NCBI GenBank assembly: GCA_028713895.1
Contig: JAQTNH010000001.1
Location: 245,808-309,807 of the forward strand
Reading direction: 5' to 3'
Source: Candidatus Nanoarchaeia archaeon
GTDB lineage: Archaea; Nanobdellota; Nanobdellia; CSSed11-243R1
Length of the DNA: 64,000 nt
Both the position numbers and the translations under genes were made by a program. Within the stretch, counting starts at the first letter, position 1. Each line of letters begins with the position of its first letter. The notes below the pieces were generated by a model, which ran no database searches, was not told where the DNA came from, and saw nothing but the letters and a program-made list of their open reading frames with translations. Shown here piece by piece: positions 23,020 through 29,134 of this stretch.

Positions 23020-23565
23020 TTAAGGACGGGTCCAATTTACTTCATAATACGTAACATCGCTCTCGTCATCTGCGATTCCTATCAGAAGCGTTTTCCTCAC
23101 GCTGTGGGCGACACGCATCATTGCTGCAAAGCCCCTCCATGCGTAAGACTCTCCCTCGCGCACGCAGAAAAGAACCCACTTGGCATGCTCGGTGTCAGGA
23201 TTCTGTCCGCGCGGATAAACGCGGAAGTCTGCGCCGTACTTGAGCGCAGTTTTTGTGATGTAGCCGCGCTCGCGTATGTCTGAGTAGACTGCGTAGCGGA
23301 CCGGAAAGCGCTTTTCTTCCTTTGTCGCGATTTTCATGAAAGAATCATAATTCAGCTTCTTGCCTGTCATGGGCTTGATGTCAATCTTTCCCTTTTCCAT
23401 GAGATAGAGAGATTCCACTAATGACAGTTCAAGCTTTTGTTTTACAAGTTTGCCATACCAGCCTTTGTTAAAGATTCTGTTCGCATCTGGCTCGCTGGAG
23501 ATTACGACTTTATCCTTGACAAGGACGCCGATGGCTTTTTCTTCCTTTATTTCTTCATCAGCCAT
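23020..23565 (-). CDS. endA: tRNA-splicing endonuclease
   Basis: This enzyme cuts the bulge-helix-bulge of archaeal pre-tRNAs. The catalytic triad is present: Tyr117 (FRVYPRG), His127 (TEHAKWVLF) and Lys158 (RKTLLIGIAD). At 181 aa it has the length of an alpha subunit, as in the homotetrameric alpha4 type. It is not the fused ~390-aa epsilon2 form. The window encodes at least four tRNA introns it must remove, two at non-canonical sites, which alpha4 enzymes are not generally expected to process well. A separate structural subunit gene is not visible here. Confidence 0.92.
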   Translation of the reverse strand: MADEEIKEEKAIGVLVKDKVVISSEPDANRIFNKGWYGKLVKQKLELSLVESLYLMEKGKIDIKPMTGKKLNYDSFMKIATKEEKRFPVRYAVYSDIRERGYITKTALKYGADFRVYPRGQNPDTEHAKWVLFCVREGESYAWRGFAAMMRVAHSVRKTLLIGIADDESDVTYYEVNWTRP

Positions 23566-26955: not shown

Positions 26956-27014
26956 ATTTACTACTAATCAGTGACTATATATAAATGTTTGGATGCAACT
27001 GAAAAGAAAAAATG

Positions 27015-27204
27015 TGGGGCGACAGGGATTTGAACCCTGACCCACAGGTATCTTCTACCCGTTCGTCCTCATCGGCTTGCGCCTCAGCGCTCCATGAACG
27101 TAGTTCTGGAGCCTGTCACTGCAGGCACTCCTTTTTCAAAGAGATGCATACTGCCAGGTTATACTATCGCATCAAGTAAGTTGTAGTCTCCCGCAACTTA
27201 GCCC
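27015..27204 (-). tRNA. tRNA-Trp(CCA) with three introns
   Basis: Exons at 27204-27202 (3 nt), 27170-27149 (22), 27118-27106 (13) and 27049-27015 (35) sum to 73 nt. Joined, they give acceptor GGGGCGA/TCGCCCC (7 perfect pairs), D-stem GTAT/GTAT (two G-T pairs), anticodon stem ACAGG/CCTGT (5 perfect), loop CTCCAGA with anticodon CCA, T-arm CAGGG-TTCAAAT-CCCTG, and discriminator A. Introns are 27201-27171 (31 nt, after base 3), 27148-27119 (30 nt, between 24 and 25) and 27105-27050 (56 nt, canonical 37/38). Introns 1 and 2 are bounded by clean bulge-helix-bulge motifs (central helices CAAG/CTTG and GCAG/CTGC, 3-nt bulges). A TATA box TTTTATAA lies near 27243-27250, and a T-run follows the 3' end. 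Confidence 0.95.
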
Positions 27205-27252
27205 TTGCGTGTAACCCAGCTATAAGAAAAGAAAAGGAATTGACTTATAAAA

Positions 27253-29080: not shown

Positions 29081-29134
29081 CAACTCACCATTTTAACTTA
29101 AAAGAAGTAAGGTTAAATAATTTACTTAAGAAGT

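Follow-up and report, generated by a model that had tools for sequence, protein, structure and literature searches.

The minus strand of the window (the whole 64,000-nt stretch of DNA analysed) carries, between positions 27204 and 27015, a tRNA-Trp gene with four exons (3, 22, 13 and 35 nt) and three introns, best read from the letters of the locus as lying at tRNA positions 3/4, 24/25 and 37/38. We put the probability at about 0.9 that this is a functional tRNA-Trp gene, apparently the sole copy, whose three introns would be removed by protein-catalyzed splicing at bulge-helix-bulge (BHB) motifs. The features of the locus, together with the gene for the tRNA splicing endonuclease located about 3.5 kb downstream, are collected in Table 1.

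Table 1. Layout of the tRNA-Trp locus, its intron-encoded guide and the nearby endonuclease gene
Feature	Coordinates	Strand	Evidence or remark
TATA-like box TTTATAAG	27244..27251	-	47 nt upstream of G1
5' leader (start inferred)	27205..27221	-	carries CG+CAA, i.e. the BHB-1 outer helix and 3/4 bases of the central helix 5' strand; includes GGG 27217-27215
Exon 1, positions 1-3, GGG	27202..27204	-	ARAGORN and exhaustive splicing search
Intron 1, 31 nt, 3/4, BHB	27171..27201	-	central helix 4/4, bulges 3+3, inner stem 7 bp
Exon 2, positions 4-24	27149..27170	-	ARAGORN and exhaustive splicing search
Intron 2, 30 nt, 24/25, BHB without strict outer helix	27119..27148	-	pairing check and splicing search
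Exon 3, positions 25-37; anticodon CCA 27109-27107	27106..27118	-	ARAGORN
Intron 3, 56 nt, canonical 37/38, relaxed BHB	27050..27105	-	central helix 3/4; C34 mismatch recurs in several orthologs
Guide UGGAGC within intron 3, antisense to exon G31-A36	27089..27094	-	all ten compared tRNA-Trp introns
Box D' (CUGA)	27084..27087	-	intron comparison
Box C'-like GAUGA	27069..27073	-	after GGC-GCAA-GCC hairpin 27083-27074
Exon 4, positions 38-73, CCA tail not encoded	27015..27049	-	sequence and ARAGORN
T-rich run 3' of the gene, possible terminator	27000..27014	-	sequence
tRNA splicing endonuclease EndA, 181 aa, single-gene alpha4-like	23020..23565	-	PF01974 6e-26, PF02778 6e-21

Without the three introns the gene gives a 73-nt RNA that ARAGORN calls as tRNA-Trp(cca), exactly as an earlier reading of the sequence alone had proposed, with the same boundaries. 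The spliced RNA forms 21 of 21 cloverleaf pairs: 7/7 in the acceptor stem, 4/4 in the D stem (two of them G-U), 5/5 in the anticodon stem and 5/5 in the T stem, in agreement with the 7-bp acceptor, the anticodon stem and the T-arm described in that reading. It has G1-C72, G2-C71 and A73, the anticodon CCA and a C at position 39. The complete cloverleaf is present only with the introns removed, which bears out the proposal that the acceptor stem exists only after splicing.

The first two introns are flanked by BHB motifs that match those of the sequence-only reading in having full 4/4 central helices and 3-nt bulges on both strands. BHB 1 combines the central helix CAAG/CTTG and bulges GGC/ATG with the previously noted 7-bp inner stem and a 2-bp outer helix. 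BHB 2 has GCAG/CTGC, bulges TAT/AGT and a 4-bp inner stem (one G-U); its outer helix has no pairs at the strict 3-nt register, and CCTG/CAGG pairs with a 5-nt 3' bulge. No clean motif had been claimed for intron 3, where we find a relaxed one: the central helix has 3/4 pairs (C34 is mismatched with A), the outer helix 5 bp and the inner stem none. A 38/39 junction for this intron was also tried and rejected, the central helix there having merely 2/4 pairs.

In 20,000 shuffles per intron, made with dinucleotides kept and exons fixed, a 4/4 central helix with an inner stem at least as long as that observed never arose for intron 1, and for intron 2 it did so in 0.135% of cases; the 3/4 central helix of intron 3, taken by itself, is not significant (20% of shuffles). 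An exhaustive splicing search over 563 BHB-like candidate introns and all 5' starts in range put the same three introns at the top of the 67 solutions that had 20 or more pairs. In RNAfold at 37 °C the BHB register lies 5.7, 2.5 and 10.6 kcal/mol above the local minimum for introns 1, 2 and 3, values that do not discriminate because other BHB introns assigned in this genome by the same solver lie 0 to 14 kcal/mol above the RNAfold minimum.

The enzyme expected to cut these motifs is EndA. The protein can be aligned over its whole length with M. jannaschii EndA (1a79); like 1a79, it does not have the 10-11 residue insert present in the catalytic chains from S. tokodaii and A. pernix, an insert that we read as the CSL. 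In a residue-level comparison covering S. tokodaii, A. pernix and 1a79, it appears to have neither a Crenarchaea- nor an ARMAN-specific loop and resembles the alpha4 class. Y117, H127 and K158 are invariant in an alignment of EndA proteins, and a catalytic triad of Tyr, His and Lys has been named for the endonuclease (PMC12397907). At 181 aa it also has the size, about 180 aa, of the single short subunit of that class. Taken together the protein resembles the one-gene alpha4 type of Methanocaldococcus, and would presumably form a homotetramer as that type does.

This assignment is at odds with the introns that the enzyme would have to process. According to one review, canonical BHB motifs are the only ones that alpha4 enzymes cut (PMC4033280), although Methanothermobacter appears there as one of the multi-intron archaea. 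On that description of alpha4 cleavage, the missing strict outer helix of BHB 2 and the central mismatch of BHB 3 count against our model. For this EndA a 4-bp core flanked by 3-nt bulges may be enough, or else a second subunit has been missed. We give roughly even odds to the fuller proposal that a loop-less, one-gene alpha4-like EndA handles arbitrary sites, relaxed motifs and an acceptor-stem BHB borne partly by the leader, with splicing before RNase P. It is rather unlikely, in our judgment, that the tRNA-Trp is as described but cut by an undetected broad-specificity endonuclease, such as a beta subunit or a second EndA encoded in the unassembled 10% of the genome. Non-canonical introns do usually go with loop-bearing endonucleases (PMC12397907), and one relative, G011, has a second, weak EndA match; on the other hand, a second PF01974 match is absent from the genome even at E<=10, every searched relative that is at least 90% complete has an EndA match (one each except G011), and the aligned EndA proteins are alike.

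The tRNA-Trp gene is not alone in this genome, where about seven further tRNAs have non-canonical introns and the total of such introns is about nine. The introns of Gln-CUG and Gln-UUG (L105, L109), 31 and 30 nt long, are related; both lie at 21/22 and have GGTC/GACT central helices. Ala-CGC and Gly-UCC (L108, L110) have two introns each, at 19/20 and 37/38 in the former and at 15/16 or 16/17 and 37/38 in the latter. Leu-CAA has an intron at 30/31, as does Lys-CUU (L113; G000:C1:812430-812850, minus strand; 51 nt), and 30/31 is also the site at which Nanoarchaeum equitans and Staphylothermus divide tRNA-Lys(CUU) between two genes (PMC3218864). A locus called by ARAGORN as tRNA-Glu(ctc) (L028) is probably tRNA-Ser(GCU), interrupted at 29/30 by an intron of 36 nt. 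Two ambiguous cases, Leu L106 and the second intron of Leu L107, were left out of the count. All of these other non-canonical introns have a 4/4 central helix, often with a weak outer helix; the uniformity is partly built in, since the solver favors such helices.

The BHB motif of the 3/4 intron extends into the 5' leader. Where a TATA-like box could be recognised in this genome's tRNA genes, a distance of 32-34 nt from box to tRNA start is commonest, though not universal; in the tRNA-Trp orthologs of G001 and G004 it is 33 and about 32 nt (the latter read by hand), so that the leader here, with G1 47 nt from the box, is about 14 nt longer than usual in both sets of genes. These extra 14 nt hold bases needed by BHB 1: the 5' strand of its central helix includes CAA (27207-27205), with the outer CG lying likewise upstream of G1. 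The pre-tRNA would be transcribed from the TATA-type promoter with its long leader, and BHB 1 would arise through pairing of the leader CAA and G1 with the 3'-terminal part of intron 1. In every motif EndA would cut at bulge positions 2/3, and the exons would be joined by RtcB; the 7-bp acceptor stem could form only after that, allowing RNase P to remove the leader. Intron 1 removal should precede RNase P because the acceptor stem is absent before splicing and a leader cut would destroy BHB 1. Genes for RNase P RNA, RtcB and fibrillarin are present in the genome. The splice-then-trim order implied by the 3/4 intron is the reverse of that reported for Methanopyrus kandleri, in which the 3' end, the 5' end and modification come before intron removal (PMC3695527).

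The leader also bears on where the tRNA begins. Were exon 1 the GGG at 27217-27215, the first insert would be 44 nt long (27214-27171) and the mature tRNA, as well as the 24/25 and 37/38 introns, would be the same. We consider this 5' boundary very improbable: it does place the tRNA start 34 nt past the TATA-like box, the usual distance, but it has no BHB (by hand, the upstream GCTG is unpaired with CTTG at 27176-27173), whereas the start at 27204, which the exhaustive search favors, comes with a complete 4/4 helix and an inner stem of 7 bp. With the start at 27204, the leader GGG duplicates that of exon 1 at a spacing of 10 nt (27217-27202), a possible trace of the insertion of intron 1. One may speculate, from this one locus, that an older gene took up ~44 nt directly behind its position 3.

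Intron 3 contains, in the order UGGAGC-G-CUGA-GGC-GCAA-GCC-GAUGA, a guide, box D', a hairpin and a box C'-like element. The base facing C34 is the fifth upstream of box D', and the guide should direct 2'-O-methylation of C34. Antisense pairing is found in 10/10 of the tRNA-Trp introns compared (this one included) and the guide plus box D' (CUGA or AUGA) in six of the ten; the arrangement UGGAGC-G-CUGA appeared in 10 of 200,000 composition shuffles. Euryarchaeal tRNA-Trp introns (Clouet d'Orval 2001; Singh 2004, both as cited in PMC3218864) likewise combine the 37/38 site with an antisense element and D'/C' boxes directed to C34. They differ in that position 39 here is a C, and neither a second guide (for U39) nor a terminal box C/D pair was recognised on reading intron 3. 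With these last two elements unrecognised, intron 3 would work like a tRNA-Trp box C/D guide without being a full member of the group.

Comparison with relatives sets the 3/4 and 24/25 introns apart from the one at 37/38. In G001, of the same family, the order DUF4013 - tRNA-Trp - Ig-like protein - EndA is the same as here, and its tRNA-Trp has introns at 37/38 and 53/54 with none at 3/4 or 24/25. G057 carries the 37/38 intron and another at about 22/23, and G085 has one at 53/54. G004 and G083 (L073, L035), which the solver missed and which were read by hand, have T-loop introns at 59/60 with common TTCA/TGAA central helices, plus 37/38, while several other orthologs have the 37/38 intron alone. 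In this survey the 37/38 junction was fixed by anticodon-stem pairing. EndA neighborhoods at 80 named loci yielded tRNA-Trp genes in just two, a class-wide tRNA-Trp pattern search gave mostly chance matches, and the DUF4013 protein as query had no match among the named relatives. The 3/4 and 24/25 introns are most simply explained as lineage-specific gains, given that the orthologs carry other extra introns or 37/38 alone.

Standard tools do not find this gene. Scanned for tRNAs with ARAGORN and with Rfam, the window yielded only a tRNA-Arg at 29133, ARAGORN with introns allowed placed a wrong tRNA-Gln at the tRNA-Trp locus, and an RF00005 search of the genome gave 29 tRNAs above threshold, none of them Trp. 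A looser search with inspection of T-arm sites added about eight interrupted tRNAs and no second tRNA-Trp in the assembly (89.5% complete, 13 contigs), so the intact tRNA-Trp(CCA) elsewhere that the sequence-only reading had named as a possible refutation was not found within it; the single-copy case is strong but, at this completeness, not final. The idea that the locus is a decayed pseudogene or an assembly artefact, and that the working Trp tRNA is encoded elsewhere, draws on the incomplete assembly in 13 contigs and on the gene's invisibility to ordinary finders, but deserves hardly any credence in view of the intact 21/21 pairs, BHB features flanking inserts 1 and 2, the conserved guide and box of intron 3, the promoter box, the orthologous position in G001 and the lack of a further Trp gene in the assembly.

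How much of this is new can be judged against other archaea. The earlier suggestion that the sites are unprecedented does not hold for 3/4 (Thermoproteales, PMC4090602) or 24/25 (PMC3293823) singly; a three-intron tRNA-Trp that combines them, in a DPANN-type lineage whose single EndA is loop-less, did not turn up in the openly accessible literature searched. Introns at 3/4 are reported for certain Thermoproteales tRNAs (Sugahara 2008, as cited in PMC4090602) and likewise interrupt the acceptor stem and leave a 3-nt first exon; the present case differs in being a tRNA-Trp, its host a DPANN-type archaeon and its enzyme alpha4-like. tRNA genes with three introns, the maximum reported (PMC4033280), also exist (PMC4090602), and Pyrobaculum islandicum tRNA-Pro UGG (25/26, 37/38 and 56/57) likewise has one canonical intron among its three (PMC4090602). 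These Thermoproteales pre-tRNAs differ in tRNA, sites and phylum, and reviews assign to Crenarchaeota alpha2beta2 endonucleases bearing a specificity loop, for which we found no counterpart in this genome. Caldiarchaeum subterraneum tRNA-Thr(GGU), with introns at 24/25 and 45/46, shares the 24/25 site and the presence of a second non-canonical intron, but its 24/25 intron sits inside a larger mobile-element insertion (PMC3293823). Because 3/4 introns, 24/25 introns and three-intron tRNAs are all known in other archaea, the gene is a variant rather than a new phenomenon. We report as new (i) the leader-borne BHB 1, (ii) the intron 3 guide, (iii) the lineage-specific 3/4 and 24/25 introns and (iv) the other non-canonical introns in a genome with a loop-less EndA. 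The sequence-only reading had mentioned neither the role of the leader nor the guide in intron 3, and likewise neither the loop-less EndA gene close by nor the further non-canonical introns.

If a single loop-less EndA does process all of these introns, it would break the rule that non-canonical tRNA introns need loop-bearing alpha2beta2 or epsilon2 enzymes. An organism with one such enzyme, about nine non-canonical introns and an essential tRNA with three introns offers a direct test of that rule (PMC4033280; PMC12397907). The different extra introns across orthologous tRNA-Trp genes form a comparative series for intron gain. Finally, because ordinary scanners miss such genes, the absence of tRNA-Trp from DPANN genomes may reflect a gap in annotation.
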